Assembly (NCBI GenBank): GCA_001029295.1
Contig: LDXJ01000062.1
Span: 124,001 to 188,000 of the forward strand
Length of the DNA: 64,000 bases
Reading direction: 5' to 3'
Source of the DNA: Peptococcaceae bacterium CEB3
Lineage (GTDB): Bacteria > Bacillota > Desulfitobacteriia > Desulfitobacteriales > Desulfitobacteriaceae
Part shown: positions 19,316 through 39,537 of the stretch, one piece after another
Position numbering within the stretch: position 1 is the stretch's first letter
Layout of the letters: every line of letters starts with the position of its first letter
Notes under the pieces: model-generated
What the model saw: only the letters and a program-made list of their open reading frames with translations
Databases searched by the model: none
Told to the model about the DNA's origin: nothing
Translations under genes and position numbers: made by a program

Positions 19316-20131
19316 ATGCGCAACATTTGCTTAACTATTGCTTATGATGGGACAAGTTATCACGGATTCCAACGCCAGCCCCAGTTCCATGGGCCAACGA
19401 TCCAAGGTACCTTGGAAAGGGTTTGGGAGGCCTTAGCGGGGGAGAAAATCCAAGTTCACACCGCCGGACGGACTGATACCGGGGTGCATGCCAAAGGGCT
19501 GGTTGTAAATTTCCTGTCTCAGACGCGCATTCCGGAGGAGAAGATCCCAAAAGCCTTCAACAGCCTGCTGCCGCGCGATATCCGAATTCTCGGCGCCCTA
19601 AATGAGCGGCCGGAGTTTCACGCTCGCTTCTCCGCCCGTTGGAAACGCTATGATTACCAGATTGACAACCGTCCGATCCCCGATGTCTTTCAGCGCCGCT
19701 ATGCCCTGCACGAGCCTCTGCGGTTGAGGCTGGAAGCCATGGCCGAAGCGGCGGTTCTGCTGGAGGGGAGGCATGACTTTCGGGCGTTTGCGGCCGCCGG
19801 CGGTGCGAGTAAGACCTTTGAGCGGACGCTGTATATTTGCCGGGTGGCGGACGGGGAAAACGGGCTTTTAACCGTCACCTGCGCCGCCGACGGGTTTCTC
19901 TACCACATGGTCCGGATCTTTGTCGGAACACTTCTGGAAGTCGGCCGCGGGAAAATCCCGGTAGAACGGGTTGCGGGGATTTTAGCGGGCGGAGAACGCA
20001 AAAAAGCGGGAGAAACGGCTCCCGCCCACGGTCTGACCCTGGTTCACGTGCATTACGGAGAAGAATTGCCTTGGGAGGTATATCCGGATTTGAAGGGCGG
20101 GGCGGGGAAAAGGAATGGAGGAACAAAGTGA
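19316..20131 (+). CDS. truA: tRNA pseudouridine synthase A
   Basis: TruA converts uridines 38-40 of tRNA anticodon stems to pseudouridine. It has 271 residues with the catalytic Asp in AGRTDTGVHAKG, the RNA-binding FHARFSARWKRYDYQI region and the second-half motif FLYHMVRIFVGTLLEVGRGK. The start is ATG 19316 behind AAAAGGAG; an in-frame upstream extension is unrelated. Its TGA overlaps the GTG of hydE, so a housekeeping gene is translationally coupled to a hydrogenase maturase. Confidence 0.95.
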   Translation: MRNICLTIAYDGTSYHGFQRQPQFHGPTIQGTLERVWEALAGEKIQVHTAGRTDTGVHAKGLVVNFLSQTRIPEEKIPKAFNSLLPRDIRILGALNERPEFHARFSARWKRYDYQIDNRPIPDVFQRRYALHEPLRLRLEAMAEAAVLLEGRHDFRAFAAAGGASKTFERTLYICRVADGENGLLTVTCAADGFLYHMVRIFVGTLLEVGRGKIPVERVAGILAGGERKKAGETAPAHGLTLVHVHYGEELPWEVYPDLKGGAGKRNGGTK

Positions 20132-21135
20132 ACGCCATCGCAGCGGTCCTGCGCCGAGCGGAACAAGTACATGATCTCAGCCGCGATGAACTGGTCTTTT
20201 TGCTCGCTGACCACGAGTATGACCGCGAGATTTTTGCCGCGGCCGACAGGGTGCGCCGCAAGTATGTTGGGGATGAGGTTCATCTCAGGGGTCTCATCGA
20301 ATTCTCGAATATCTGCCGCAGAAACTGTTTCTACTGCGGATTGAGAGCGGGAAACCGTGGGCTGGGGCGGTATCGGCTCACCCCGGAAGAAATTATCGGA
20401 CTCGCCCAGAAGGGGTGGGAATACGGTTACAAGACTGTGGTACTTCAGTCCGGTGAAGATGAGTACTACAGCGTGGAAAAAATGTGCCACATCATTAAGA
20501 ACATCAAAAGACTCGGTCCAGTGATCGCCCTGAGTATCGGTGAGAAAACCTACGCGGAGTACGAGGCCTATAAAGAGGCCGGGGCAGAGCGATATTTAAT
20601 CAGAATTGAGACGACCGAGAAAAAGCTCTATGAAGATTTGGATCCGGGCATGAGTCATGAGAAGCGAAAACGCTGTTTGAATGACTTGAAGAAGCTGGGT
20701 TATGAGGTCGGCTCAGGCTCCTTGGTGGGGTTACCGGGCCAGACGATAGAATCATTGGCCGATGACATTCTCTATTTTCGGGAAATAGGGGCGGACATGA
20801 TTGGAATCGGTCCGTTTATACCGCATGAGGATACCCCCCTCAAAGCTGCCAAAGGAGGGGATTTTCGACTCAGTCTCAAGGTCATGGCGCTCACCCGGCT
20901 TTTAGTGCCGCATATTAACATTCCAGCCACCACAGCGATGGAGACCCTGCATAGAGATGGGAGAGCTATCGCTCTACAAAGCGGGGCCAATGTCGTCATG
21001 CCCAATATTACGGAAGGAGAGTATAGGAAACTCTACGCCCTGTATCCAGGAAAAGCCTGTGTGGACGATACCCCTGGCCGCTGCCGTGAATGTATTACGG
21101 CCAAAATCGAAGGAATAGGCAGAACGGTTGTTTGA
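20128..21135 (+). CDS. hydE: [FeFe] hydrogenase maturase HydE (radical SAM)
   Basis: HydE is the radical SAM enzyme that works with HydG and HydF to build the 2Fe subcluster of the H-cluster. It has 335 residues with the radical SAM triad CRRNCFYC near residue 66, VVLQSGEDEYY, YLIRIETTEKKLYEDLDPGMS (in part) and late ECITAKIEGIGR. It starts with GTG 20128 behind GGAGGAA and overlaps the truA stop. HydG and HydF are encoded 11-14 kb away on the other strand. A biotin-synthase-like paralogue is excluded by the HydE motifs. Confidence 0.92.
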   Translation: MNAIAAVLRRAEQVHDLSRDELVFLLADHEYDREIFAAADRVRRKYVGDEVHLRGLIEFSNICRRNCFYCGLRAGNRGLGRYRLTPEEIIGLAQKGWEYGYKTVVLQSGEDEYYSVEKMCHIIKNIKRLGPVIALSIGEKTYAEYEAYKEAGAERYLIRIETTEKKLYEDLDPGMSHEKRKRCLNDLKKLGYEVGSGSLVGLPGQTIESLADDILYFREIGADMIGIGPFIPHEDTPLKAAKGGDFRLSLKVMALTRLLVPHINIPATTAMETLHRDGRAIALQSGANVVMPNITEGEYRKLYALYPGKACVDDTPGRCRECITAKIEGIGRTVV

Positions 21136-22008: not shown

Positions 22009-23145
22009 CTAGCAGATTCTGGGCAGGGGCGCACCGGCCAGCATATCGACGAGACGGGTGCCCCCTAATGGGGTTTCGAGGAGCACACGGCCCCGGCCCG
22101 GACGAACCTCCCCGATCACGGCGCTCCGTTTCCCTTCCGGAAAACGGCGGAGGAAACGGACGATCTCGTCGGCCCTCGGGGCGGCCACGATCAGAATGAT
22201 TTTACCTTCATTCGCTAAGTACAGCGGGTCCAGCCCCAGAAACTCGGTGGCGCCGCGTACTTCGGCGCGCAGAGGGATAGCGGCTTCTTCCAGCAGGAGG
22301 TCTCGGCCGCTGGAAAGGGCGATTTCTTTAGCCGTGGTGGCCAGGCCGCCGCGGGTTGGATCGCGCATAAACTTTACAGCCGAGCCGAACGTTTCAAGAA
22401 GGGGAGTAATGAGGGTATTGAGGGGGGTGCAGTCGCTGACGACGGTTTGGTCAAAGGTGAATCCCGCGCGCTCAGCCAAGACGGCGACACCGTGTTCGCC
22501 AATTCCCCCGTTGAGAAGAATCTTGTCACCGGGCTCGATCCGGTCATAGCCCAAAGCGGCGTTCCCGTCTTTGAAGCCGATTCCGGTGGTATTGATGTAA
22601 ATCCCGTCTCCTTTGCCCCGTTCCACCACTTTGGTATCGCCGGTGACCAGAGAAACGCCGCATGATTCGGCGGTGGCCGCCATGGAAGCGACAACGCGTT
22701 CCAGCAGCGCGATATCCAGCCCTTCCTCCAGGATGAAGCCGGCGGTCAAGTATTTGGGCTTGGAGCCGCTTACGGCCAGATCATTGACCGTTCCGGCCAC
22801 AGCCAGTTTGCCGATGTCCCCGCCGGGAAAGAAGAGGGGATTGACGACGAAGGAGTCCGTCGTGAGTGCTATGGTGGCGGCACCGGGCAGCAAGGCGGCA
22901 TCTGTCAAAGCCAGAAGCTCGGGGGCCGTCAGATATTTCTGAAAGACCCCGGTGATTAATTCATGAGTCAGGATTCCGCCGTCACCGTGGGCGAGAAGAA
23001 GAACTCCGGGCCCACTTTCCGTGCCGGCGGTGGGGTTCAGCGCGACAGGCAGGTCTTGATCATTGGGGTTCCCAGGACTCAGGCTATCTGGACAGTTGGG
23101 AGAGTCGGGACCGTTTGGCTGTTGCGGGTGGTTTAAGTCGGCCAT
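22009..23145 (-). CDS. hypE: [NiFe] hydrogenase maturation factor HypE
   Basis: HypE dehydrates the C-terminal thiocarboxamide to thiocyanate and gives the CN ligands of the NiFe centre. It has 378 residues: an unusual N-terminal extension of about 45 residues rich in Pro/Asn/Asp, then LLLAHGDGGILTHELI, MRDPTRGGLATTAKE, and the essential C-terminal cysteine (PRIC). It begins eight bases after the hypD stop. The N-terminal extension is not family-typical, so a downstream start is possible, but GGGAGGG stands before this ATG. Confidence 0.93.
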   Translation of the reverse strand: MADLNHPQQPNGPDSPNCPDSLSPGNPNDQDLPVALNPTAGTESGPGVLLLAHGDGGILTHELITGVFQKYLTAPELLALTDAALLPGAATIALTTDSFVVNPLFFPGGDIGKLAVAGTVNDLAVSGSKPKYLTAGFILEEGLDIALLERVVASMAATAESCGVSLVTGDTKVVERGKGDGIYINTTGIGFKDGNAALGYDRIEPGDKILLNGGIGEHGVAVLAERAGFTFDQTVVSDCTPLNTLITPLLETFGSAVKFMRDPTRGGLATTAKEIALSSGRDLLLEEAAIPLRAEVRGATEFLGLDPLYLANEGKIILIVAAPRADEIVRFLRRFPEGKRSAVIGEVRPGRGRVLLETPLGGTRLVDMLAGAPLPRIC

Positions 23146-23153
23146 GGTTTGAA

Positions 23154-24290
23154 TTATCCCTCCCTTCGCTCGTATTTGTAATAGGTGGCACAGGTACCCT
23201 CACCGGAAACCATACAGGGGCCAACGGGGTGGACCGGAGTGCAGGATTTAGCAAAGTGCCGGCAGTTAAAAGGCAGAGCCTTCCCTTTGAGGACCTCACC
23301 GCAGAGACAGCCGGCAGGTAGGTGGGAGGGCGGGAGGTTGAGCGGAAAACGCTGACGGGCGTCAAATTGCCGGTATTCCGGACGCAGAACCAAGCCGCTG
23401 CCCGGCAGCGGGCCAAGTCCCCGCCACCTGACATCACCTTGCCTAAAATAACGGTCGACGAGTTCCCAAGCCTTGCGGTTGCCCTCTTCCCGCACGATGC
23501 GGGGATAGCAATTGCTCACACGGGCGGAAGCGTCATGGTACTGAGTCAGGAGATCCCGGATGCCGCTCAGAAGATCCAACTCGGCAAAACCGGTCACGGC
23601 GGAAGGAAGGGAAAAATCCGAAGCCACAAAACCAAAGTAGCGGCGCCCGGTAATGGCCGCTACATGGCCGGGAAGAATGAGGCCGTCCAGTTTCAGTTCC
23701 GGGTCTTGCAAGAGCTGACGGATGACGGGGGCTGTCAGCTTATGCACACTGTAGACGGAGAAGTTTTCCAGTCCTTCTTCGATGGCGCTGCGTAAGGCGG
23801 CAGCTATGGTGGGGACGGTGGTCTCAAAACCGATTCCCATGAAGACGATCTGCCTCTGAGGTTCGGTTTTGGCGAAATTCACTGCTTCGAGAGGGGAATA
23901 AACGATTCGCACATCCGCTCCGGCGGCTTTGGCGTGGGCGAGGTCCCCACGGCTTCCGGGTACCCGGACCATGTCGCCGAAGGTCGTGACAGTCAATCCG
24001 GGCAAGGTGGCGAGCTCAAGCATGGCATCGATGTCTGCCTGATCTGTGACACAGACGGGACAACCCGGGCCGCTGCGAAAATCAACCCAGGAACGCAGGG
24101 CATCTCGGATACCGCTGCGAGAAAGAGCGACGGTATGGGTGCCGCAGACTTCCATCAGGGTTAATTTGCGGCCGTGCGCTCGCTGCCAGGCGGCCAGCTC
24201 CTCCTTTATTTGGGCGAGCATCGCGCGTCCGAGAGCGAGATCATCATTGAAACGAGGTAGGGGAGAGTGTTCAGCTCGATTGAACGGCAT
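23154..24290 (-). CDS. hypD: [NiFe] hydrogenase maturation factor HypD
   Basis: HypD carries a [4Fe-4S] cluster and, with HypC, assembles Fe(CN)2CO. It has 378 residues with LMEVCGTHTVALSRSG, GPGCPVCVT and the late cysteine-rich CLCGEVLKGK. The start is ATG 24290 behind CTGGAGGGAAATTT; it overlaps hypC by 20 bases, a usual hypCD arrangement. An in-frame ORF extends 84 bases further into hypC but has no homology. Confidence 0.94.
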   Translation of the reverse strand: MPFNRAEHSPLPRFNDDLALGRAMLAQIKEELAAWQRAHGRKLTLMEVCGTHTVALSRSGIRDALRSWVDFRSGPGCPVCVTDQADIDAMLELATLPGLTVTTFGDMVRVPGSRGDLAHAKAAGADVRIVYSPLEAVNFAKTEPQRQIVFMGIGFETTVPTIAAALRSAIEEGLENFSVYSVHKLTAPVIRQLLQDPELKLDGLILPGHVAAITGRRYFGFVASDFSLPSAVTGFAELDLLSGIRDLLTQYHDASARVSNCYPRIVREEGNRKAWELVDRYFRQGDVRWRGLGPLPGSGLVLRPEYRQFDARQRFPLNLPPSHLPAGCLCGEVLKGKALPFNCRHFAKSCTPVHPVGPCMVSGEGTCATYYKYERREG

Positions 24291-24498
24291 AAATTTCCCT
24301 CCAGAGTGCCAGACTTTCCTGGGCGGAGTCTTGATCGACGATCTCAATCGCAAAACCGGCATGAACCAGCACATAGTCGTCGAGTTTAACTTGATCGATC
24401 AGGGAGGTATTGACGCGGGCGCGGTTGCCAAAGGTCTCCACTTCCACGGTGAAATCATTCAGAATACGGACTACTTTTGCGGGGACGGCCAGACACAT
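24271..24498 (-). CDS. hypC: [NiFe] hydrogenase chaperone HypC
   Basis: HypC binds the iron ligand complex with HypD and delivers it to the large subunit precursor. It has 75 residues, beginning MCLAVPAKVV with the essential Cys2, followed by the small OB-like barrel and VLVHAGFAIEIVDQDSA. The start is ATG 24498; GTG three codons upstream would bury Cys2. AAAGGGGTGG precedes it. First gene of hypC-hypD-hypE on the minus strand. Confidence 0.94.
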   Translation of the reverse strand: MCLAVPAKVVRILNDFTVEVETFGNRARVNTSLIDQVKLDDYVLVHAGFAIEIVDQDSAQESLALWREIYAVQSS

Positions 24499-24813: not shown

Positions 24814-25302
24814 TTAGGGCTGGTTTGAGCCCAGTTGAGGCGTAAGTTCCGAATAGACTCGGTCCGTGAAGTCAGGGAGCTTAGCCTGAATCTCCGGCGA
24901 AGGGGCTAGGCCCCAGTCAATCACAGCCGGTTGCATGGCGAAAATATCGGTGTCAGGTTCCCGTCCCAGGAGATCGGCGATTTGAAGGACTTCCAGCAAG
25001 CCGACATCATGGATTGAAGCCATGTAGCCTTGCGGAAAAGCACCCAAATCGGCGGGTTTGAAATGGAAGATGGCGCCGGGTTCAGCCTCCGCGTCGATGC
25101 AATCCAGCACGATCAAATGTTGCACTCCCTCAATCAGGGAAAGCAGCTGGGGCCCCGCTGTACCGGCCTCGATCACTTCCACGTTTGGGGGAAGGTCATA
25201 GCGAGTGAGAAGACGGGCGGCGTGAATACCGAGGCCCTCGTCCTGAAGGAGTTCATTTCCGACCCCAAGGATTAAAGTTTTGGGATGAGTTGCGACTGAC
25301 AT
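24814..25302 (-). CDS. hyaD: [NiFe] hydrogenase maturation protease
   Basis: Cleaves the C-terminal extension of the hydrogenase large subunit once nickel is inserted. It has 162 residues with LGVGNELLQDEGLGIHA (first metal-binding acid region), LDCIDAEAEPG (Asp) and SIHDVGLLEVL (His), matching the nickel-binding Glu/Asp-Asp-His pattern of the HyaD/HybD family. It lies after the cytochrome b gene in the hydrogenase operon. Confidence 0.92.
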   Translation of the reverse strand: MSVATHPKTLILGVGNELLQDEGLGIHAARLLTRYDLPPNVEVIEAGTAGPQLLSLIEGVQHLIVLDCIDAEAEPGAIFHFKPADLGAFPQGYMASIHDVGLLEVLQIADLLGREPDTDIFAMQPAVIDWGLAPSPEIQAKLPDFTDRVYSELTPQLGSNQP

Positions 25303-25489: not shown

Positions 25490-26089
25490 TTAAATGCGTT
25501 CATGAGCCATGTTCTTGCCGACAGAACGGTTCACTTTGCGCTGCCGTCCCGTAAACATTTCCCAGAAGGCCTGCGGGGATTCCGTGAAGACGAGATAGAG
25601 ATGAATAACAAGGAAGGTGATAAAGAACCAGGTGAAGAGATAGTGGATGGAACGGATTTCCGCCAGACCCAACCAACCGACCAGGAAAGACATGGTTCCT
25701 TGCGGCCAGCCCATGGCGAATCCGGTCATCGCTTGGATAATGATCATGAGGATGACCGCGAGATAGGCCAGGCGCTGCAGAGGATTATAAAGCCCTTGTT
25801 TAGCATCCTTATTACTTAAAAAGAGATAGTATTTTACCTGTTGAGGCAGAGACCGAACATTCGGTTTAAACTCCCAATAGTCCCGATAGCGCCCGAGAAA
25901 GGCGTAATAGACGCGGAGGGCTAAATTGGCGAGAACCACGAATGCTGCCACATAGTGAACATAGCGGATAGTGCTCATCTGCCCGTAAGCGGCCGGCCTG
26001 TGCAGATAGAAACCGGTTGCTGCCAGTACTACCATGGCGATCAAGTTGACGGCGTGGGCAACCCTCTGCGGCAGGTGATGGGTTTCCAT
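25490..26089 (-). CDS. hyaC: [NiFe] hydrogenase cytochrome b subunit
   Basis: Diheme membrane cytochrome that anchors the hydrogenase dimer and passes electrons to the quinone pool. It has 199 residues with four hydrophobic segments and likely heme-ligand histidines in QRVAHAVNL, YVHYVAAFVV, IRSIHYLFTW and LVIHLYLVF. Start ATG 26089 is behind GAGGAGG; the in-frame extension reaching 26254 lies inside the large-subunit gene. Located after the large subunit, 28 bases apart. Confidence 0.92.
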   Translation of the reverse strand: METHHLPQRVAHAVNLIAMVVLAATGFYLHRPAAYGQMSTIRYVHYVAAFVVLANLALRVYYAFLGRYRDYWEFKPNVRSLPQQVKYYLFLSNKDAKQGLYNPLQRLAYLAVILMIIIQAMTGFAMGWPQGTMSFLVGWLGLAEIRSIHYLFTWFFITFLVIHLYLVFTESPQAFWEMFTGRQRKVNRSVGKNMAHERI

Positions 26090-26117
26090 TGAACATTCCT
26101 CCTCACATTCATGAATT

Positions 26118-27677
26118 TCAGCCAATCCGGAATTCAAGGACACGGTTGCTCTCCGGCTGGATAATATGGATGGCGCAAGCCAGGCAAGGGTCGTAAGAGC
26201 GCACGACCCGTACGATGTTGTTCGGGTTTTCCGGATCGGGTACGGGTACCCCAATCAGGGCTTGCTCAAGGGGCCCCGGCTGGCCGTTCTCGTCCCGGGG
26301 CGAGTGGTTCCACGTCGTGGGGACGACCATTTGATAATTGGCGATTTTGTGGTTGGCGATCTCCACCCAGTGACCCAGGGCGCCCCGCGGCGCTTCGATC
26401 ATGCCGATACCGGCGCCTGTCGCGGGCGGGTCCCAGTGTTCGGTGTCATGGATGCGCGTCTTGCCTTGTTTGATGTACCCTTCCAGTTCATCAAGCCAGC
26501 CGGGCATCGCCTTGGCCAGCAGCACGGTCTCATAGGCCCTGGCCGCGTGGCGGGCGACCGCTCCGGGTTTAATGCCGTACTTGGTTACGATATCCATGAA
26601 AGGAGCGGGTTTAAGGACCAGCATGCGGGCCAGCGGGCCCACCTCCATAGGTTTGCCGTCGTAGCGGGGAGCTTTGATGAACGAGTAGGCCTCGGGTTTA
26701 TTTAAATCGAACACGGTGTCACCTTGCACGGGATTCTTGGTGCCGCAGGCTGGCGTATACCAGGAGTACTTTACGGCCTCCGTGATCTTGGCTTGGTCAA
26801 CAGGCTGAACGTTGCCGAACTGGTTGTCGAAAATGACACCGGCGGGAAAGAAGAGTTCACCTTTGCCCGCGAGAGGAAAGCCGCCGTAGGTGAGATAGTG
26901 CCCATATCCGCCGCCGATACCGGCGCGGGCCAGAGGAAGCAGGGGCCCCGTGCCGAAAGTGGCGACATCTTTCCAGTATATGTTTTCCACAAAGTCAGCT
27001 TGTTCGGCCAGAAGGGTACGGAACTGCTCAATTTGCGTAATATCGGGCAACATGGTGACACCGCCGGCGATGATGCTGGATTGGTGAGGCTGTTTGCCGG
27101 AAAAGATGGCAGACATCTTTTTCGCTTTAGCCTGCATTTCCAAGGCTTTGATATAATGAGACACCGCTAAGGTCACCAAATCAGGGTCGTTGACGCTGAA
27201 TTCATCCGGTTTATAGCGGGGAAGGAGCGGAGAGGTATCCCCGGACTGCACCAGTTTCACTATTTTGTCCTTGACGGCCAGAAGTTTTGGGTCTTTGCCT
27301 TGATAATGGGCTACCGCGGTTACATCCAGGTAATCGAGAGCGGAGAGATGATAGAAATGCAGGGGGTGGTCATGGAGCCACATAGCGCCCAGAATGAGGT
27401 TTCTCAGGACCCGAGCGGCCTGAGGAAGCTTCGCTCCCTGCGCGTTTTCGACCGCGACTGAGGACACCCACCCGTGCGAACCGGCGCACACCCCACAGAC
27501 GCGCTCCGTGACATAAGTAGCGTCGCGAGGGTCTTTTCCCTTGAGAAGGACTTCAAGTCCCCGGGCCATGGTGCCGCTGGCGTGGGCATTTGTTACTTTG
27601 CCGCCTTCTATTTCAACCTCGACTTTGAGATGACCTTCAATACGAGTGATGGGGTCGATGACAATTTTTTGAGCCAT
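26118..27677 (-). CDS. hyaB: [NiFe] hydrogenase large subunit
   Basis: Catalytic subunit of a membrane-associated group 1-type uptake hydrogenase (H2 to 2H+ + 2e-). It has 519 residues with the nickel ligands in RVCGVCAGSH (Cys61, Cys64) and DPCLACAIH (Cys498, Cys501), and the RIEGH glutamate near residue 14. A 15-residue C-terminal extension after His504 is the substrate of the maturation protease encoded at 24814-25302. Its ATG overlaps the small-subunit TAA by one base (TAATG). Confidence 0.96.
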   Translation of the reverse strand: MAQKIVIDPITRIEGHLKVEVEIEGGKVTNAHASGTMARGLEVLLKGKDPRDATYVTERVCGVCAGSHGWVSSVAVENAQGAKLPQAARVLRNLILGAMWLHDHPLHFYHLSALDYLDVTAVAHYQGKDPKLLAVKDKIVKLVQSGDTSPLLPRYKPDEFSVNDPDLVTLAVSHYIKALEMQAKAKKMSAIFSGKQPHQSSIIAGGVTMLPDITQIEQFRTLLAEQADFVENIYWKDVATFGTGPLLPLARAGIGGGYGHYLTYGGFPLAGKGELFFPAGVIFDNQFGNVQPVDQAKITEAVKYSWYTPACGTKNPVQGDTVFDLNKPEAYSFIKAPRYDGKPMEVGPLARMLVLKPAPFMDIVTKYGIKPGAVARHAARAYETVLLAKAMPGWLDELEGYIKQGKTRIHDTEHWDPPATGAGIGMIEAPRGALGHWVEIANHKIANYQMVVPTTWNHSPRDENGQPGPLEQALIGVPVPDPENPNNIVRVVRSYDPCLACAIHIIQPESNRVLEFRIG

Positions 27678-28807
27678 TAGTTATGCCTTCCTTTCTCCGG
27701 TTTCTTGCCGGGTTTATCCTGTTTATCCTCTTTTTCCTGCTTAAGCCGCCCGGTGGCCGCGTTTCCGATCAGGTGTACGCCGGCTCCCACCACCGCGGCA
27801 CCGGCGATGACTTTCCCCACCGTTCCGGGGCTGACTCCGCCCACTCCGGGCAGGCTCATGGTGTCGGTCCGGACATAGAGAGGAGCAAAACCGGCGCGGT
27901 GATCCAGGGGACCGGCGGCATAGAATTCTGGTTGGGTGCAGCCGGCACAGGGAGAGGAAGCGTTAATACAGAAATTGACACCGTCATTCCACCAGCTTTG
28001 GGCACAATCCGTATAGGTTTTGGGTCCTTTGCAGCCTTTGAGCAAGAGACAATACTCCTTTTGTGACGGGTCGTTCCAGTCCGTTAAAAACTGACTCTGT
28101 TCGAAATGCCCCCGGCGAGGGCAGTTATCGTGGAGAAGAGTCCCGAAGTAAGCCACGGGACGTTTGTTGCTGTCCAGTTGGGGCACCTTCTTGAAAACTA
28201 AGTACTGAAGGACAGTGCCCAGAACCCAAGTCGGTTTAACCGGGCAGCCGGGTAAATTGATCACAGGTTTGTTCTTAACCACGTCCTGAACCCCTTTGGC
28301 CCCGGTCGGTCCCGCCGCGGGAATCCCCCCATAGCAGGCGCAGGCCCCCACGGCTACGATGGCGCCCGCCTTAGCGGCGGCTTCCTGAACGATTTGCCTG
28401 AAAGGCCTGCCGCCGATGGTCAAGAAACGATCATCCGCGGTGGGGATCGATCCCTCCACGACGAGCAGATAACCTCCTTGTTTAATGTTGTCTTCCAGCC
28501 AGCTTTCAGCCACCGTACCGCTGGCCGCCATGATTGTTTCATGATAGCGGACCGAAAGAAGATCGAGGACGATTTCGGCGGGACCGGGGTCGAACGAAGC
28601 GAGTACGGACTCTGTGCATCCGGTGCAATCCTGCCCTTCAAGCCAAATGACGGGCGGCTTGGCGGCGGCTTTTTCGACGGCTTCCGCAATACGCGGTTCA
28701 TAAATGGCCGGCAGGCCCAGAGCCGCGGTGGCGGCTGCGACCGCTTTCAGAAATTCGCGGCGATTCAAACCCTTTCTCTCGAGTCGAGATTGAAAATCCA
28801 TTCTCAC
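27677..28807 (-). CDS. hyaA: [NiFe] hydrogenase small subunit with Tat signal
   Basis: Electron-transfer subunit with three FeS clusters. It has 376 residues. The Tat motif NRREFLK (Arg16-Arg17) followed by a hydrophobic stretch shows export of the folded dimer. The cluster ligands appear in EGQDCTGCTES, the GACACYGG region, DNCPRRGHF, CLLLKGCKGP and SPCAGCTQPEFY. A C-terminal membrane helix (about residues 325-350) and a Lys/Asp-rich tail anchor it next to the cytochrome b. First gene of the operon, about 125 bases downstream of the inferred sigma54 transcription start. Confidence 0.96.
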   Translation of the reverse strand: MRMDFQSRLERKGLNRREFLKAVAAATAALGLPAIYEPRIAEAVEKAAAKPPVIWLEGQDCTGCTESVLASFDPGPAEIVLDLLSVRYHETIMAASGTVAESWLEDNIKQGGYLLVVEGSIPTADDRFLTIGGRPFRQIVQEAAAKAGAIVAVGACACYGGIPAAGPTGAKGVQDVVKNKPVINLPGCPVKPTWVLGTVLQYLVFKKVPQLDSNKRPVAYFGTLLHDNCPRRGHFEQSQFLTDWNDPSQKEYCLLLKGCKGPKTYTDCAQSWWNDGVNFCINASSPCAGCTQPEFYAAGPLDHRAGFAPLYVRTDTMSLPGVGGVSPGTVGKVIAGAAVVGAGVHLIGNAATGRLKQEKEDKQDKPGKKPEKGRHN

Positions 28808-28943
28808 ACCTCCAGCAATATTAGCGCAAAACGGTTGTTTAAGGTTTAGACGGCTAATGAAACATTCTGCCCCCTCCCCGGGCGATTGACCCTATAGAGA
28901 AAAAATTAAGGTATTTATAATAAGTCAGATAAAGTGATTTGCA

Positions 28944-28960
28944 TGCAAAAAGCATACCAA
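28944..28960 (-). promoter_or_regulatory. Sigma54 (-24/-12) promoter of the [NiFe] hydrogenase operon
   Basis: Read on the minus strand the sequence is TTGGTATGCTTTTTGCA. It has the invariant GG-N10-GC spacing and TTGCA at -12, close to the consensus TGGCACG-N4-TTGCW. The position implies a start near 28933, about 125 bases before the small-subunit ATG. An enhancer-binding protein gene lies next to it, as expected. This is seen directly; use in vivo is inferred. Confidence 0.8.
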
Positions 28961-29114: not shown

Positions 29115-29221
29115 TGTCTAAATACTGGACAGAAGTAAGGGCTTGTTCGCTTGTGCAGACCCGAAGAAATGGAAAGAAAGGTAAGTGTGTCTAAGTGTTA
29201 TACATGTCTAAGATTTAGACA
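29115..29221 (-). promoter_or_regulatory. Repeated TGTCTAA sites, candidate activator-binding region
   Basis: TGTCTAA occurs at 29115-29121, 29188-29194 and 29205-29211; the last is followed after GAT by its exact inverse TTAGACA (29215-29221), giving a perfect 7-3-7 palindrome. The group lies about 155-260 bp upstream of the sigma54 -24 element, the typical range for enhancer sites. Likely binding site for the activator encoded at 29472-31682. Confidence 0.55.
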
Positions 29222-29471: not shown

Positions 29472-31682
29472 TCAGCCGCTTTCCATGAGTCCGTACTCTT
29501 TTAACTTGAGGTAGAAAGTGGCCCTGGGCATGCCGAGTGTCTGGGCGGCGGCGGCCCGGTTATTTCCGCTCGTCTTTAAAGCCTGAACGATCATCTTCTT
29601 TTCCAGTTCTTGCACGGCGTCTTTCAAGGGTTTTAATTCTACAGAGGAGTCGCTTTTGGCCAACTTTGTCAGGAAGGGAGGCAGGTGGTAGGGTTGAATG
29701 ACATTTTCGTCGACGGTATAGTGCAGGCGTTCAATGATATTTTCCAGTTCGCGCACGTTTCCGGGCCAGTCATACTGCATAAAGCAGTCGATGGTGTCTT
29801 CGCTGAAGATCTTCGGGGGAACTTTGCGGGCCAGTCCCATTTTCTGCGAGAAGTGGTTGACTAGGTGGGGAATGTCCTCTTTATGGTCGCGCAAAGCGGG
29901 AACAGTAATGCTGATGACATTCAAGCGGTAGAAGAGATCAGCTCGGAACTTCCCTTCATGCACGAGGCGGCGAAGCTCACGGTTGGTGGCGGCGATGACG
30001 CGAGCGTCAAGCTTGATTGTGTGGGTCCCGCCTACCCGCTCGAATTCGCGTTCCTGCAAGACGCGCAGAAGTTTGGCCTGCATGGTTAAGGGCATGTCCC
30101 CTATTTCGTCAAGTAAAATGCTGCCGCCTTTCGCCAATTCGAATTTACCGGGTTTTCCTCCTTTTTTGGCGCCGGTGAAAGCCCCCTCTTCATAACCGAA
30201 AAGTTCCGACTCAAGCAGGCTTTCCGGCAGGGCTGCGCAATTAATGCCAATAAACGGGTGCTCACGCCGGTTGCTTAGGCGATGGACGAATTGGGCGAAG
30301 ACTTCTTTGCCCCCTCCGCTTTCTCCCTGGATGAGCACATTGGCATCATTGCGGCTGGCTTTAACCGCGAGACGCCGTAATTCCAGATTGGCGGGGCTGA
30401 TACCGATAAGAAACTGCTCATTGTCATGATAAGTCTGCTTGAGGCGCAGCCGCTCTTTATAGATTTCGATCTCTCCGTGTGATTGTTCGACCAAGTAAGG
30501 AAGGCACATGTCAATTTCTGCCAGGCCTTGGTATACGGCCACCGCTTTTTCGCGGCAGGAGTCGTAGCCGCAGGAACCGCAGTTTAACTCGTCCTCGGGC
30601 TTGAATTTGTTGGTATAACGGAGGATTTCTTTGATTTCCGATTCACTCGGTTCCTTTAAGACATGATGCTTGTCCGTGAATTCCCGCTGTAAATTAAGGG
30701 GCGGATGAGGCTCGATCTTGTCACGCTTTTTGCGCTGGGAGTATTTGAAGATCTGGTATTTGCGGCTGAAGAGGTCGAGGGGACTGTCCATTTCCGGGCC
30801 GTCGATACAACCCCGGCAAAGCAGGATGTCGACGAAGCGGGCTTGCACCAGGCCGTCCTGCAGGTTATGCAGAAATTCAAGACAGTCCTCTTTGCCGTCG
30901 ACGATGGCGATGTCTTCTTCCCGATAGAGAGACCCGTCCGGATCGAGATTGCGGGTCAGGCCGCCGCTGAGCGGAAAAAGGGGCGGCAGAGATTCGCCTT
31001 GGGGCCGCTGGGGGACGGAGCGGTCGAGATCACGGTGGAAACCATGCTTGTCCAGCATGCCCTTAAGTTCTTTAAAAGTAAGCACAGCATCGAGTACACC
31101 CTGCCCGAATTCCGCCATTTCTTCTTTCTTGGCAATGCAAGGGCCGATAAAGACGATTTTGGCTTGAGGAAATTTCCAACGCGCATATTTGGCACTGGCG
31201 AGTACCGCGGAGTCGACCGGGACGAGAAAAGGAATCAGGGTCGGAAAATGGCGCTCAATCATGCCGACAATGGCGGGGCAGTAAGAACTGATGGCCAACT
31301 CCGGGTTGTTGACCAGAAACTCCCGGTAAGCCGGAACGGTCAATTCAATGCCATGAGTCACTTCGACAATATGGCTGAAACCGAGGTCCTCCAAATCGGC
31401 GAAGAGTTCTTCGGCTTCCAGGTAGTAAAAGGAGGCCGGGAACGAGGGGGCGAGTAAGGCTACCGTTTCCCCCTCGGCGAAAAAACGCGGCAAATCTTCA
31501 ACATAGCTCACGATTTGCTTAGCATTTTGGGAACACACTCGGACACAGTTGCCACAGCTAATACAACGCTCTTCTACGACGGTAGCCTGGCCGAGCTCGA
31601 CCTTAATCGCTTTCACCGGGCAGTTGCGGACACAGGAATAACAGGCTTTGCATTTGTCGGCAATCGTTTTGACGACAGGCAT
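29472..31682 (-). CDS. Sigma54 activator with ferredoxin and [FeFe]-hydrogenase-like sensor domains
   Basis: 736 residues. Two [4Fe-4S] ferredoxin motifs lie at residues 11-21 and 40-50. A hydrogenase-like (Fe_hyd_lg_C type) domain follows with SSYCP (Cys135), GPCIAKKEE (Cys182) and CRGCIDG (Cys289, Cys292), matching the four cysteine ligands of an H-cluster, but the proton-transfer Cys is Tyr134 and the third motif is CxxC instead of CxxxC. An additional FeS domain has Cys368, 371, 376 and 393. The AAA+ core has Walker A GESGGGKE (453-460), GAFTGA (500-505) and Walker B LLDEIGD, and a Fis-type HTH ends the protein. It is co-directional with hydG and hydF upstream and faces the sigma54 promoter of the [NiFe] operon. 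Likely a redox or H2 sensor activating that operon (inferred). The start follows CGGAGG. Confidence 0.88.
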   Translation of the reverse strand: MPVVKTIADKCKACYSCVRNCPVKAIKVELGQATVVEERCISCGNCVRVCSQNAKQIVSYVEDLPRFFAEGETVALLAPSFPASFYYLEAEELFADLEDLGFSHIVEVTHGIELTVPAYREFLVNNPELAISSYCPAIVGMIERHFPTLIPFLVPVDSAVLASAKYARWKFPQAKIVFIGPCIAKKEEMAEFGQGVLDAVLTFKELKGMLDKHGFHRDLDRSVPQRPQGESLPPLFPLSGGLTRNLDPDGSLYREEDIAIVDGKEDCLEFLHNLQDGLVQARFVDILLCRGCIDGPEMDSPLDLFSRKYQIFKYSQRKKRDKIEPHPPLNLQREFTDKHHVLKEPSESEIKEILRYTNKFKPEDELNCGSCGYDSCREKAVAVYQGLAEIDMCLPYLVEQSHGEIEIYKERLRLKQTYHDNEQFLIGISPANLELRRLAVKASRNDANVLIQGESGGGKEVFAQFVHRLSNRREHPFIGINCAALPESLLESELFGYEEGAFTGAKKGGKPGKFELAKGGSILLDEIGDMPLTMQAKLLRVLQEREFERVGGTHTIKLDARVIAATNRELRRLVHEGKFRADLFYRLNVISITVPALRDHKEDIPHLVNHFSQKMGLARKVPPKIFSEDTIDCFMQYDWPGNVRELENIIERLHYTVDENVIQPYHLPPFLTKLAKSDSSVELKPLKDAVQELEKKMIVQALKTSGNNRAAAAQTLGMPRATFYLKLKEYGLMESG

Positions 31683-31789: not shown

Positions 31790-33223
31790 TTAAAAGTACA
31801 GGTCCCTTTCCCCTTGAGTCAGGCGTTCCAGGCGGGACTCGGTCTCAACCCTGGTTCTGGCCGACGGTATCAGGGCCAGGTGTTGAGTGATGGTTTTTTC
31901 GCCCAAGGAGCGCACCTCCGGGGAGGCGTAGTCCAGCAAATACTCTTTAAAGGTCAGGATGGCATTGGGCTGGCACATGTTCTGAATGGAGCCGTCCTTG
32001 GCCAGGGGCATAAAGTGGTCTCCGGTGCGCCCTTGGCGGTAACAGGCGGTGCAGAAGCTAGGCAGGAAATCTTTGCGGCAGAGATCGGCGATCACTTCGT
32101 CGGGCGGGCGCCGGTCGCTTAAATGAAACTGGGGTGGAGCCGACGAGCGGAGCGCGCCGTTGCCGGAGGCTGAGGCGTAGCCGCCCACATCGGTGGAAGA
32201 ACCGGCGCTCAGTTGGGAGATGCCCAGGGAGAACAGTTCATCGCGCAGAGCGGGTTCTTCCCGGGTGGAGATAATGAGGCCGGTGTAGGGTACCGCGAGC
32301 CGCAAAACGGCCACGATTTTCTTTAGATCCCTGTCTGCGACGAGGTGGGGAAAAGTCTGTAAATCTACTCCTTCGGCGGGGCGCAGGCGGGGTACGGAAA
32401 GGGTGTGCGGTCCCACTCCGAACGACTCTTCCAGGGCCTGGGCGTGCCTCAGCAAAGCCAGCGCCTCAAAATGATAATCATAGAGGCCGAACAACACGCC
32501 GAGTCCGACATCATCGATGCCGGCGCTCATGGCGCGGTGGTGGGCTGTGGTATGGTAGTCGTAATCTCTCTTGGGACCGGAGGGATGCATTTTGCGATAG
32601 GTTTCCCTGTGATAAGTTTCCTGGAAGAGAATATAAGTGCCGATTTGGGCCTTTTTCAGGCGCCGGTAGTTTTCAACGTCTGTCGCGGCGATATTGACGT
32701 TCACGCGCCGGATGCGGCCGTTTCCTTCCCGCACCCCGTAGATCGTGGAAATGGCTTCCTCCAAGTAATCCAGGTCACACTCGCGGGGGTCTTCCCCGCA
32801 TTCCAAGGCCAGGCGCTTGTGTCCCATTCGTTCCAGGGCCCGGATTTCGGCCTTTATTTCGTCCATGGTTAAACGGTGGCGTTCAAATTTGTTATCCCGG
32901 CGGTAGCCGCAATACAAGCAGTTGTTGACACAGAAACTGCTCAAATAAAGAGGAGCGAAAAAGACCATGCGCCGGCCGTAGATTTTTTGCTTGATGGCAT
33001 TGGCCGCGCGGAAAAGTTCACCGAGCACCGCTTCATCCTCGCAAAAGAGGAGTTTAGCGGCATCCTCCAGGCTGAGTCCTTGCGCTTCCCGGGCCCGGTC
33101 GATGATGGCGAGTAGGGGCGCGGGGGCAGAAGAGACGCTTTCCCGGCGAGTCTTGGCCAAAATACGATTAATTTGGTCTTCGTCGATAAAAGAGGCGTCA
33201 AATAGAGCATCCTCTCGCTTCAT
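31790..33223 (-). CDS. hydG: [FeFe] hydrogenase maturase HydG (tyrosine lyase)
   Basis: HydG is a radical SAM enzyme that splits tyrosine to produce CO and CN for the H-cluster. It has 477 residues from ATG 33223. It shows the radical SAM CVNNCLYCGYRR near residue 98, LALECGEDP, FQETYHRETYRKMHPSGPK (in part), and the C-terminal CTACYRQGRTGDHF and CQPNAILTFKEYL cysteines that bind the auxiliary cluster. The start is uncertain: the frame is open to 33334 and ATGs at 33262 and 33250 are possible, but family homology starts near KREDALFDASFID. Downstream of hydF and upstream of the activator gene. Confidence 0.93.
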   Translation of the reverse strand: MKREDALFDASFIDEDQINRILAKTRRESVSSAPAPLLAIIDRAREAQGLSLEDAAKLLFCEDEAVLGELFRAANAIKQKIYGRRMVFFAPLYLSSFCVNNCLYCGYRRDNKFERHRLTMDEIKAEIRALERMGHKRLALECGEDPRECDLDYLEEAISTIYGVREGNGRIRRVNVNIAATDVENYRRLKKAQIGTYILFQETYHRETYRKMHPSGPKRDYDYHTTAHHRAMSAGIDDVGLGVLFGLYDYHFEALALLRHAQALEESFGVGPHTLSVPRLRPAEGVDLQTFPHLVADRDLKKIVAVLRLAVPYTGLIISTREEPALRDELFSLGISQLSAGSSTDVGGYASASGNGALRSSAPPQFHLSDRRPPDEVIADLCRKDFLPSFCTACYRQGRTGDHFMPLAKDGSIQNMCQPNAILTFKEYLLDYASPEVRSLGEKTITQHLALIPSARTRVETESRLERLTQGERDLYF

Positions 33224-33487
33224 AGCATGTTCCCGGTTGTTTAATAACATGTCAAGTCCCATGGCGCCGGGCGGTGCCAACAAAGGCTGAACAGGCGCGG
33301 TGCCCGCACAATTGCCAGGTGCATCCCAGTGCACCGGCTATTTTCAAGATACAGGAAAGGGTTATAATGACTGACATGTCCATTCCCGCCGACACAGGGC
33401 GGAAACCGGGTTATTCACCCCTTTCTGTTTAAGATTCGGAAGGGCCGGGAAAGGCTTTGCCGTGAAAAGGAGTGATCGGCACCCGAG

Positions 33488-34801
33488 TTAAGAACGGATG
33501 ACCCGCAGAGCGTCGGGAAAAGGTGACAAGGTTCTGGGAAGGATCCCGTGCAGGTAGGCGATGCTGACTCCGTAGTTGACCACGGGTACTCCGGCGGAGG
33601 TAATCCGGTGCAGGCGGGCGAGCATCTGTCGACGGTTCAGCATGCAGGCGCCGCAATGTACTACGAGTTGAAACTCGCTCAGGTCCGCGGGCAGAGTGCC
33701 GCCGCTGACCCAAGTATAGGAAAGTTTGCCCTCGACTTTTCGCTCGAGCCAGGCGGGTATTTTTACTTTGCCGATATCGTCGTCCGTTCGGTGGTGGGTG
33801 CAGGCTTCGGCGATTAAAACGCGGTCACCCGGACGTAAACGCTCAATTGCTTTGGCACCGGCGGCTAATTCGCACAGGTCTCCTTTGTAGCGGGCGAAAA
33901 GGATCGAGAAGGAGGTCAGGGTGATTTCCTCCGGAGTGAGGGCGTTGACCGTTTGGAAGGCCTGAGAGTCCGTGATGATCAGCTTGGGCGGGTTTCTCAA
34001 TGAGGCTAAAGCCATAGGCAGTTCCTCGCTCTGGATGGTCAGGGCTTGAGCGTGATGATCCAGAAGATCGCGAATAGCCTGAACTTGGGGCAGGATCAAA
34101 CGGCCTTTGGGGGCGGAGCGGTCGATGGGTGCCACGAGAATTACGGTATCTCCGGCCTGGACCAGGTCCCCGAGCAGGCTGGGCTCCTCCTCTTCCGGAG
34201 AGGCGGCTTGAATAAGGGCGGACTTGAGAGCCTCGATCCCGGCTTTGGTTCGCGCACTCACCGGGATGACCGGGATTGCCGGGGGAAACCGGTTCTGAAC
34301 CGCGGCACGAATGCGGGCAGTCACGTCCGGGTCGAGGGTGTCTGCTTTGTTGAGCGCGACGACCAGCGGCAGCTGCCGTTCCGTTAACAGGGAGGCGATC
34401 TCGTCTTCGCGGCTGCCCCAGCCTTCCGGGGCATCGACGGCCAGGAGGGCGAGGTCAGTTTTGTCGAGGACATGGAGGCTGCGCCGGACCCGTTCGCTGC
34501 CTAAGATTCCTTCGTCGTCCAGACCGGCTGTGTCGATCAGAACGACCGGCCCGATGGGTAAGATCTCCATGGTTTTGTAGACCGGGTCGGTGGTCGTCCC
34601 GGGCGTGGGGGAAATGATCGCCACTTCCTGGTTGGCAATCGCGTTGATCAAGCTGGATTTGCCGGCGTTGCGGCGGCCAAAAACAGCGATGTGCAAGCGT
34701 TCCCCCCTCGGGGTCTCGTTAAGCCCGGCTACCCCGCCTGTTGGTTCGGAGTGGCCGGGGTGGGCGTCGTTCGGTAACTGATGGTTTGCTTGTTTGGACA
34801 T
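33488..34801 (-). CDS. hydF: [FeFe] hydrogenase maturation GTPase HydF
   Basis: HydF is the scaffold GTPase on which the 2Fe subcluster is finished before transfer to the apo-enzyme. It has 437 residues from ATG 34801: an N-terminal low-complexity stretch, the GTPase domain with P-loop GRRNAGKSS and NKAD, a dimerisation domain, and the C-terminal cluster ligands EACTHHRTDD and VVHCGACMLNRRQ, the CxH...HCxxC pattern of HydF. GGATGG precedes the start. Likely first gene of a hydF-hydG-activator unit. Confidence 0.94.
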   Translation of the reverse strand: MSKQANHQLPNDAHPGHSEPTGGVAGLNETPRGERLHIAVFGRRNAGKSSLINAIANQEVAIISPTPGTTTDPVYKTMEILPIGPVVLIDTAGLDDEGILGSERVRRSLHVLDKTDLALLAVDAPEGWGSREDEIASLLTERQLPLVVALNKADTLDPDVTARIRAAVQNRFPPAIPVIPVSARTKAGIEALKSALIQAASPEEEEPSLLGDLVQAGDTVILVAPIDRSAPKGRLILPQVQAIRDLLDHHAQALTIQSEELPMALASLRNPPKLIITDSQAFQTVNALTPEEITLTSFSILFARYKGDLCELAAGAKAIERLRPGDRVLIAEACTHHRTDDDIGKVKIPAWLERKVEGKLSYTWVSGGTLPADLSEFQLVVHCGACMLNRRQMLARLHRITSAGVPVVNYGVSIAYLHGILPRTLSPFPDALRVIRS

Positions 34802-35178
34802 TGGTATCCATCCGTTTCTCAGAGAAAAATACTGGGTTCTTGAGCGGCCGTAACAAGTGCCTCGCGGGTTGGCCTGAAAATGCGGCGACGCCGCAGGGAA
34901 AGGCACTGTCTAAAAATTATACATCCTTATTGTAATCCTTCCCGGGCAGTTATTCAAGGATATGAGTTTCAGGGGCCGGAAATACCGTTATTTAACGGGC
35001 CGAAAGACTACCGGCAAGCAAGGAAGCGTCACAGTCATTCCCTGAACCAACAATACATCGCCTTTGACACCCCCTGCCTTAAGTCTTAAGCCTCTATTGG
35101 CGGAGAAACTCGACTTGTGATTATTCAGCGGTTAGAAATTTCCCGAAACAGCGGGTTCTTTCAGGAAAGCGAAATCGC
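34802..35178. other. Divergent spacer between hydF and rplM
   Basis: No gene is supported here. A TATAAT on the minus strand (34921 to 34916) about 115 bases before hydF may be its -10 box, without a clear -35. TGCGGCGACGCCGCA near 34890 is a short GC-rich palindrome. The rplM promoter follows at 35179. Confidence 0.35.
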
Positions 35179-37953: not shown

Positions 37954-39537
37954 GTGACGGAAGATAATAGGTTTGTGCAGGTGCTGGACAGGCTGGCGGA
38001 AGGAATTCACATTGTGGATACAGAGGGTGTGACGCTTTTTTACAACCGGGCCATGGGGCGCATGGAGGGACTGAGTCCCGGGGATGTTGTCGGCAAACAA
38101 CTTTTAAGCCAGTTTCCTTCGCTCTCTCAAGAAACCAGCACTCTGTGGCAGGTTTTGAAGACCCGGGAGCCGGTTCTTGGGGTCAGCCAGACCTACTTGA
38201 ATCCGCGCGGAGAAAAGATTACTTCCGTAAACGATTCTTATCCTCTTTTTAGAGGGGGATTTTTCACAGGAGCTTTGGAGGTGGCCCGAGATCTCAGCCA
38301 TGAGGCCAAATTGACTGAACGGGTGGCTCTCTTGCAGAGTCGGCTTCGCTCTCCTCGCGGCGAGGCGGGAAGCCCCAACGGGGCTTACTATACATTTGCT
38401 GACATTAAGACGCAGAGTCCTTTAATGCTCAGAACACTGGCCAAAGCGGAAAAAGCGGCCAGGAGTACCGTGAGCGTGCTCATTTCCGGGGAGACAGGTA
38501 CCGGCAAAGAAATGGCCGCCCAAAGCATCCACATGGCGAGTCCGCGGGCCGGGGGGCCGTTTGTCGCCCAGAATTGCGCCGCTTTTCCGGAGGGACTTTT
38601 GGAAGGACTTCTGTTTGGCACGGTTCGGGGGAGTTTTACGGGAGCCATGGATCGCCCGGGGCTGTTCGAACAGACGCAGGGCGGGAGCATTCTCCTCGAT
38701 GAGCTGGATTCTATGGGTTGGAATTTACAGGCTAAGTTGCTGCGGGTTTTGCAGGAAGGGAAAGTCCGGCGACTGGGGGACACGCGCGAGCGGGAACTCG
38801 ATGTCCGTTTTCTGGCAACGACCAATGCTCGGGCTGATCAAAGTGTGAAAGAGGGCCGGCTGCGCCCGGATCTTTTTTACAGGCTGAGCGTGGTCGATCT
38901 TTATCTTCCCCCTCTGCGGGAACGGGGCAAGGACGTTGATCTTCTCATTGATTATTTCTTGGCGCACTATGCCCGGCTTCACGCCGGGAACGTTCCCCGG
39001 CTCCTGCCGGAGGCCGAGCAGGCCCTTAAAGGGCATGATTGGCCGGGCAATGTGCGGGAGCTGGCCCACGTCATAGAAGGAGGACTTGTCATTGCCGGCG
39101 AGGAGTTCGGTTTGGAGGAACTGCCCAATTACCTGCGCTACGGAACAGGGCGCGGCTCTTTGGAGGAAGCGGGAGCGGCCGGCGGGGACGCCGAAACTGG
39201 GGGCTCCGGCCATCTTGCTGAGGTGGGGGAGTCGGATTTTGCCGGGACGGACGGGCGAGCCCCGGCTTCAAACGGGAAATTCGGCCGGCGCGCGGGAGCG
39301 CCGGGTTGGGGTGAGGCAGAAGAGCGGGCTGCGAGCGGTTCCGGTGTTTCCCCGGAGATGCCCCCGGAGATACCCCCGGGGATGAGCCTGCCGGAAAGGG
39401 TCGAATGGCTGGAACGGCAGTCAATTCAGGCCGCTCTGGCCGAAACCCGGGGAAATGTAACGAAAGCGGCGGCCGCTTTGGGAATTTCCAGGCAGTTGTT
39501 GCAGTACAAGATGCGGCGCTGGTCTTTGTGGCGGTAA
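37954..39537 (+). CDS. PAS-type sigma54 activator, RocR-like
   Basis: Probable activator of the ornithine operon 2.6 kb downstream. It has 527 residues: PAS domain at about 8-120 (LDRLAEGIHIVDTEGV), AAA+ core with Walker A GETGTGKE (179-186), GSFTGA (226-231; the second residue of GAFTGA is Ser) and LLDELDS, a low-complexity Gly/Ala/Pro-rich linker at about 395-470, and a Fis-type HTH at the end (AAAALGISRQLLQYKMRR). The domain order matches RocR, which activates arginine catabolism in Bacillus. It starts with GTG 37954 behind GGGGTGGG. The target is inferred from location and the sigma54 promoter at 42084. Confidence 0.85.
   Translation: MTEDNRFVQVLDRLAEGIHIVDTEGVTLFYNRAMGRMEGLSPGDVVGKQLLSQFPSLSQETSTLWQVLKTREPVLGVSQTYLNPRGEKITSVNDSYPLFRGGFFTGALEVARDLSHEAKLTERVALLQSRLRSPRGEAGSPNGAYYTFADIKTQSPLMLRTLAKAEKAARSTVSVLISGETGTGKEMAAQSIHMASPRAGGPFVAQNCAAFPEGLLEGLLFGTVRGSFTGAMDRPGLFEQTQGGSILLDELDSMGWNLQAKLLRVLQEGKVRRLGDTRERELDVRFLATTNARADQSVKEGRLRPDLFYRLSVVDLYLPPLRERGKDVDLLIDYFLAHYARLHAGNVPRLLPEAEQALKGHDWPGNVRELAHVIEGGLVIAGEEFGLEELPNYLRYGTGRGSLEEAGAAGGDAETGGSGHLAEVGESDFAGTDGRAPASNGKFGRRAGAPGWGEAEERAASGSGVSPEMPPEIPPGMSLPERVEWLERQSIQAALAETRGNVTKAAAALGISRQLLQYKMRRWSLWR

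Follow-up and report, generated by a model that had tools for sequence, protein, structure and literature searches.

A sigma-54 activator with an [FeFe]-hydrogenase-like sensor as a candidate client of the HydEFG maturases in Peptococcaceae bacterium CEB3

Gene order and regulatory sites

We analysed a 64,000-nucleotide stretch of the genome of Peptococcaceae bacterium CEB3 (contig LDXJ01000062.1, positions 124,001 to 188,000; hereafter the window, with positions counted from its first letter), in which genes for the H-cluster maturases HydF and HydG adjoin a gene for a sigma-54-dependent transcriptional activator bearing an N-terminal [FeFe]-hydrogenase-like sensor (hereafter the activator). 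On the minus strand, hydF, encoding the maturation GTPase and scaffold (33488..34801, with its ATG at 34801 and its stop at 33488; TIGR03918, 554.6 bits, and PF18133/PF18128), is followed by hydG, encoding the radical-SAM maturase for the CO and CN ligands (31790..33223; TIGR03955, 601.9 bits), and by the activator gene itself (29472..31682), identified from Pfam matches and an AlphaFold model. Family matches and coordinates thus agree with the sequence-only reading that had first listed the three genes as consecutive. Further along the same strand lie the genes of the proposed target operon, beginning with the [NiFe] hydrogenase small subunit, which carries a Tat signal (27677..28801; TIGR00391, PF14720), and continuing with the large subunit (26118..27677; PF00374, 517 bits), a cytochrome b561-type membrane subunit whose start is approximate (25490..26092; PF01292), a maturation protease of the HycI/HyaD type (24814..25302; PF01750), and the [NiFe] maturation genes hypD (23154-24374; PF01924) and hypE-like (22009-23145; assigned by sequence and synteny). 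As that reading had also noted, this [NiFe] enzyme is the sole structural hydrogenase of the window. It had, however, placed hydE in the same block; the gene instead lies on the plus strand beside truA, whose end it overlaps (~20131-21135; TIGR03956, 368.5 bits), at a distance of ~10 kb from the minus-strand block. Close to the locus, window positions 37954-39537 on the plus strand encode another sigma-54 activator with a PAS-like N-terminus, and its sensor part is unrelated.

The interval between the activator and the [NiFe] genes contains three copies of a palindrome, TGTCTAA-N3-TTAGACA, which we regard as candidate operators or upstream activating sequences: TGTCTAAATCTTAGACA (29205..29221), a 14/14 match; TGTATAACACTTAGACA (29188..29204), 17 bp from the first copy; and TGTCCAGTATTTAGACA (29115..29131), the latter two likewise recognized by their match to the motif. 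Consensus scoring predicted a sigma-54 (-24/-12) promoter for the [NiFe] operon, TGGTATGCTTTTTGCA, on the minus strand (28944..28959), and a weaker operator copy (12/14; 28836..28852), whose position is not conserved, lies between this promoter and the small-subunit gene. Palindrome and sigma-54 site recur in the corresponding gap of all 11 loci compared, usually with an operator pair 17 bp apart and a third copy 60-95 bp downstream; the sigma-54 site scores at least 10/12 in all eight orthologous gaps and 9-11/12 in three Carboxydothermus genomes. Upstream of hydF, a sigma-70-like promoter, TTGAAT-17-TACAAT (34929..34957, minus strand), with equal geometry in relatives, is followed just downstream by a single operator, TGTATAATTTTTAGACA (34907..34923; 13/14 match), which is a candidate site of autorepression; an equivalent heads the unit in all eight Desulfitobacteriaceae loci.

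Across the 11 loci, 44 operator matches scoring at least 11/14 were found, against 8.5 expected from Markov shuffles of the whole loci; 33 fall in the activator-[NiFe] gap, eight at the unit head and three elsewhere. Because the motif was first picked out by eye in those very gaps, comparison with shuffled sequence flatters the gap itself, but neither the copies at the unit head nor the specificity across the genome depends on that choice. Within the source organism's own 5.3-Mb genome, matches with at most one mismatch number three, all of them at the activator locus.

Orthologues of the activator occur in nine genomes of the class Desulfitobacteriia, that of CEB3 included, with 68-100% identity over the N-terminal domain. 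In all eight whose flanks are intact, the activator gene is directly followed by the same [NiFe] genes; the contig of the ninth stops within the activator gene and was left out of the flank counts. The placement of the single operator also bears on the extent of the transcription unit. Where the activator does not follow hydFG, as in five relatives (L069-L073), the operator is centred 27-47 bp upstream of the activator start and downstream of a sigma-70-like promoter. Where hydF and hydG precede it, as in the window, in Acididesulfobacillus acetoxydans (L067) and in a Desulfosporosinus genome (G034, locus L068), operator and promoter are instead found upstream of hydF, and the hydG-activator interval of these three loci holds no strong operator copy. 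Since operator and promoter head the unit whether it begins with hydF or with a solitary activator gene, we consider it most likely from these sequence comparisons that hydF, hydG and the activator gene form one autoregulated, co-transcribed unit, of which hydF is the proposed first gene, with the [NiFe] operon as its target. In Carboxydothermus the order is hydG-hydF-activator-[NiFe], and the frames abut or overlap.

The activator and known sensory hydrogenases

A Pfam scan of the activator found two [4Fe-4S] ferredoxin motifs (Fer4) in residues 1-60, a PF02906 H-domain in residues 73-296 (115 bits against a cut-off of 22.1) and a PF04060 iron-sulfur domain in residues 366-395, with the spacing Cx2Cx4Cx16C (C368-C371-C376-C393); no PAS domain was matched. 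The C-terminal half consists of a sigma-54 AAA+ domain (PF00158, 229.9 bits) that contains EGAFTGA, a lid (PF25601) and a Fis-type helix-turn-helix (HTH) domain (PF02954). An AlphaFold model of residues 1-420, with a mean predicted local distance difference test score of 88.8, matches solved [FeFe] hydrogenases (the D. desulfuricans enzyme, CbA5H and CpI) with Z-scores of 34-37 and root-mean-square deviations of 2.7-3.3 Å over 324-339 residues, an agreement that informs on the fold and not on cluster geometry. The four H-cluster cysteines, C135, C182, C289 and C292 (C300, C355, C499 and C503 of CpI), are invariant in 35 homologues. K185, which lies in the motif GPCIAKK, is equivalent to K358 of CpI, a lysine that contacts a CN ligand. 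At three further CpI positions the activator is substituted (C299 to tyrosine, M353 to glycine, which is Gly180 in G-P-C, and M497 to leucine), and the Met353-to-Ser/Thr exchange of group D is absent, Gly180 occupying that position.

The closest parallels are found among putative sensory [FeFe] hydrogenases of the M2e and M2f types, whose published domain order the activator follows as far as the Fe-S motif. TamHydS (group D, M2e) shares with the activator the two N-terminal [4Fe-4S] motifs, the H-domain, the C-terminal Cx2Cx4Cx16C, the absence of PAS, the non-conservation of C299 and the exchange of M497 for leucine (PMC8163306). Unlike TamHydS, the activator is fused to a sigma-54 AAA+ domain and a Fis HTH, has CxGC in place of CxxxC in its L3 loop and glycine instead of serine at M353, and is encoded beside a [NiFe] hydrogenase, whereas the context of TamHydS is a bifurcating [FeFe] hydrogenase. 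TmHydS (group C, M2f) has the same cluster modules, the M353-to-glycine substitution and the loss of C299 (PMC10055695); the activator differs from it in lacking PAS, in having its own DNA-binding output and in its short L3. Both TmHydS and TamHydS do bind an H-cluster, and the substitutions of the activator (C299 to Y, M353 to G, M497 to L) are of a similar kind (PMC8163306, PMC10055695). We do not claim membership in group C or group D, because the L3 spacing is not canonical and both PAS and Ser/Thr353 are absent; in our reading the protein would work like a sensory [FeFe] hydrogenase fused to a sigma-54 activator.

On its output side, the activator resembles enhancer-binding proteins of the NtrC/NifA/FhlA type, with a GAFTGA-containing AAA+ domain, a lid, a Fis HTH, a -24/-12 promoter and upstream palindromes, but its sensor is a hydrogenase-like iron-sulfur module and not a PAS, GAF or receiver domain. 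Analogous logic is found in HoxBC-HoxJ-HoxA, in which a regulatory [NiFe] hydrogenase, used as the sensor, acts through an NtrC-type activator on the genes for [NiFe] hydrogenase; that system divides sensor, kinase and regulator among separate proteins and uses a NiFe site, whereas here a single polypeptide contains an [FeFe]-type domain. A search limited to the open-access literature found no paper describing such a hydrogenase domain joined to a sigma-54 activator. For years, sensory [FeFe] hydrogenases have been proposed chiefly from the domains they contain and the genes around them, and how the H-cluster relays its signal has yet to be settled (PMC13104023). Because sensor and DNA-binding output are here joined in a single protein whose promoter, operators and target are all predicted, H2 sensing by such a module would be open to an ordinary reporter assay.

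Distribution of the activator and the maturases

The sequence-only reading had argued that, in the absence of an [FeFe] hydrogenase gene, the activator may be the client of HydEFG. Its premise holds within the window but fails genome-wide, an ordinary HndD being encoded on another contig, and the argument built on it is therefore wrong for the genome. This 580-aa HndD-type [FeFe] hydrogenase is encoded downstream of an HndC-like gene (G000:C48:8483-9337) and carries TSCCPAW, MPCVAKK and MACPGGC, that is, all three H-cluster motifs. It shares 98.3% identity with HndD from the single-contig sister genome of A. acetoxydans, which together with a similar G+C content rules out contamination or a binning artefact.

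Comparison with other genomes speaks to the activator more directly. In Carboxydothermus, the activator is the one and only PF02906 protein in each of three genomes, those of C. islandicus and two congeners; C. hydrogenoformans is among the three, and one of them is a single contig of 2,401,520 bases. Each also encodes HydE, HydF and HydG, with hydF and hydG directly upstream of the activator gene. HydG of the single-contig genome gives a full-length match of 1024 bits to Protein Data Bank entry 4RTB, which is HydG of C. hydrogenoformans (PMC6212873). The activator is likewise the sole PF02906 protein of G034, a Desulfosporosinus metagenome-assembled genome (MAG) rated 100% complete, where hydF-hydG lie directly upstream and HydE elsewhere; another genome (G070, SKS1.bin106) resembles G034, but HydE was not found there. 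Dethiobacter has hydE-hydF-hydG in front of the activator gene and an HndD-like gene nearby.

The pocket residues point in the same direction. All 31 homologues tabulated outside Desulfuromonadia keep P79 and K185 as well as C135, C182, C289 and C292, and 22 of their 31 genomes have HydF and/or HydG. By contrast, P79 and K185 are lost in 18/18 Desulfuromonadia homologues (for example, ISSCIAGK for IGPCIAKK), and 16 of these 18 genomes lack HydF as well as HydG. The resulting association of K185 with the maturases (22/9/2/16; Fisher's P = 7e-5) amounts in essence to a single contrast, Desulfuromonadia against all others, and its P value ignores kinship. Nor is the pattern perfectly tidy, as the Desulfuromonadia homologues keep an L3 of normal length despite the lost pocket. 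A tree of the Bacillota-type activators and the Desulfuromonadia homologues had weak deep support and long branches, and was not used for dating events.

An ordinary hydrogenase elsewhere in the genome, with no co-occurrence of this architecture and hydEFG in others, was what the sequence-only reading had named as evidence against itself. The hydrogenase exists, but so does the co-occurrence, in the three Carboxydothermus genomes and G034. It had also named separate transcription of the activator gene, against which the operator pattern speaks. What survives of its proposal is that the activator is plausibly a client of HydEFG, a reading well supported by these comparisons; that it is the only or simplest client in the genome fails in the presence of HndD.

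Several variants of the system were seen alongside these. Homologues without the AAA+ domain (L119, L120, L126, L128-L132, L134, L135) precede a sigma-54 activator encoded on its own and, in most cases, an HndD gene; here the same sensor is probably split over two proteins. In Moorella (L109, L112, L116), the activator architecture lies near an HndD-type [FeFe] hydrogenase and not a [NiFe] enzyme, and the TGTCTAA operator is absent. Geobacteraceae loci L148, L152 and L160 encode pocket-less homologues with sigma-54 output, divergent from [NiFe] hydrogenase genes, so that the apparent target is the same although no H-cluster is expected in them. Maturases and hydrogenases also part company elsewhere: three well-assembled class relatives (G003, G002, G046) have full-score [FeFe] hydrogenase genes with HydF and HydG not over the family cut-off, and two small MAGs (G032, G033) show strong HydF and HydG matches with weak or fragmentary PF02906 matches. 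Occurrence of hydA without hydEFG has been published for heliobacteria (PMC9147875).

Proposed mechanism and alternative explanations

We propose that the activator unites sensor and transcription factor in a one-component system, with a group C/D-like [FeFe]-hydrogenase module in the front half and a sigma-54 activator in the back half. The front module probably senses H2 or low redox potential via an H-cluster. H2, or a low potential set by H2, would alter this module so that the AAA+ domain is freed or activated; bound at the TGTCTAA-N3-TTAGACA palindromes upstream of the -24/-12 promoter, the activator would then open that promoter and turn on the adjacent operon for a membrane-bound [NiFe] uptake hydrogenase. 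By binding the single operator that closely follows the sigma-70 promoter of its own unit, it would limit synthesis of HydF, HydG and itself. Because the unit in this genus is predicted to be hydF-hydG-activator, the enzymes for the diiron part of the H-cluster would be made along with the sensor, and HydE, HydF and HydG would mature the activator and, in the source genome, HndD as well. Gene order, the [NiFe] neighbour, the sigma-54 site, the operators and the common unit head are features of the sequences themselves; we infer that an H-cluster is inserted, that H2 is the signal, that the unit-head operator represses and in which direction regulation acts. Taken as a whole, the model of an autoregulated H-cluster sensor and transcription factor for the [NiFe] operon, matured by HydEFG, appears to us rather probable.

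The observations that weigh against this model are several, and some would be expected if HydEFG served HndD only and the activator were an H-cluster-free iron-sulfur sensor of redox state or O2, its hydrogenase fold degenerate but its control of the [NiFe] genes retained, with hydFG adjoining it by chance or through a shared anaerobic promoter. Such an arrangement is possible, if somewhat doubtful. HndD is present in the source genome and in G001, and because it exists HydEFG need no extra client here. The L3 motif LLCRGCIDGP, the distinctive feature of the activator, spaces the last two cysteines as CxGC, one residue short of CxxxC, and this short loop (CxxC), common to the window activator and all Bacillota-type relatives, may block normal H-cluster geometry. 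Desulfuromonadia homologues work with a lost pocket and mostly without HydF and HydG, and hydFG do not adjoin the activator in 6/9 close orthologues, most of those in Desulfosporosinus having hydFG beside HydA and away from the activator. To these points can be added that a scan at a threshold of at least 11/14 found no operator copy in front of Carboxydothermus hydG, and that nine of the 31 intact-pocket homologues are in genomes without detected HydF or HydG, eight of which also hold a full-score [FeFe] hydrogenase; the absence is uncertain because all nine are MAGs by record title. The presence of maturases in 9/9 orthologue-bearing genomes is not significant, because HydG is present in 51/69 genomes of the class, and we dropped it as evidence. 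What an HndD-only role fails to explain is why full HydEFG is kept in Carboxydothermus and G034 though the activator is their sole PF02906 protein, why K185 and the cysteines are all retained outside Desulfuromonadia, and why an operator is shared at the unit head.

HydEFG in genomes without other [FeFe] proteins might instead mature something else, such as the [NiFe] hydrogenase by supplying its CO and CN ligands, or be decaying remnants. The [NiFe] genes neighbouring hydFG would fit the former, but the same loci contain hyp-type [NiFe] maturation genes, the hydFG reading frames are intact, and HydG of Carboxydothermus, whose structure has been solved, is an intact enzyme (PMC6212873), making this explanation very improbable. 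We also think it unlikely that the activator senses formate, CO or general redox state, through iron-sulfur or hydrogenase-like centres, and not H2. C. hydrogenoformans lives on CO, and a second operator pair in that organism precedes a formate dehydrogenase-like operon; the universal target is nevertheless a hydrogenase, and reactivity towards H2 is a property of related group C/D enzymes (PMC8163306, PMC13104023). The spread of the source genome over 64 contigs might suggest trivial synteny, with the assembly in pieces, or contamination of the bin; this explanation has a negligible chance of being correct, and is refuted by the same gene order in the single-contig sister chromosome and in independent lineages.

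In the boldest reading, the sensing cofactor of this one-component transcription factor is an organometallic H-cluster, and Carboxydothermus and G034 would maintain the whole HydEFG pathway only to mature it; the factor would control a [NiFe] hydrogenase and probably also, in C. hydrogenoformans, a formate dehydrogenase. We see the case for this proposition as evenly balanced. The well-studied HydG of C. hydrogenoformans (4RTB) would thereby gain a candidate natural client. The only other C. hydrogenoformans operator pair (G118 C1:701900-702007; L180 7400-7570), with at most one mismatch and accompanied by a sigma-54 site, TGGCAAGAATTTTGCA, scoring 11/12, lies upstream of the formate dehydrogenase-like operon (L180 7608-11404), and the operator pairs of this genome suggest a regulon of respiratory electron donors. 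The frame of the formate dehydrogenase-like alpha subunit (L180) is interrupted by a stop codon, possibly one that encodes selenocysteine.

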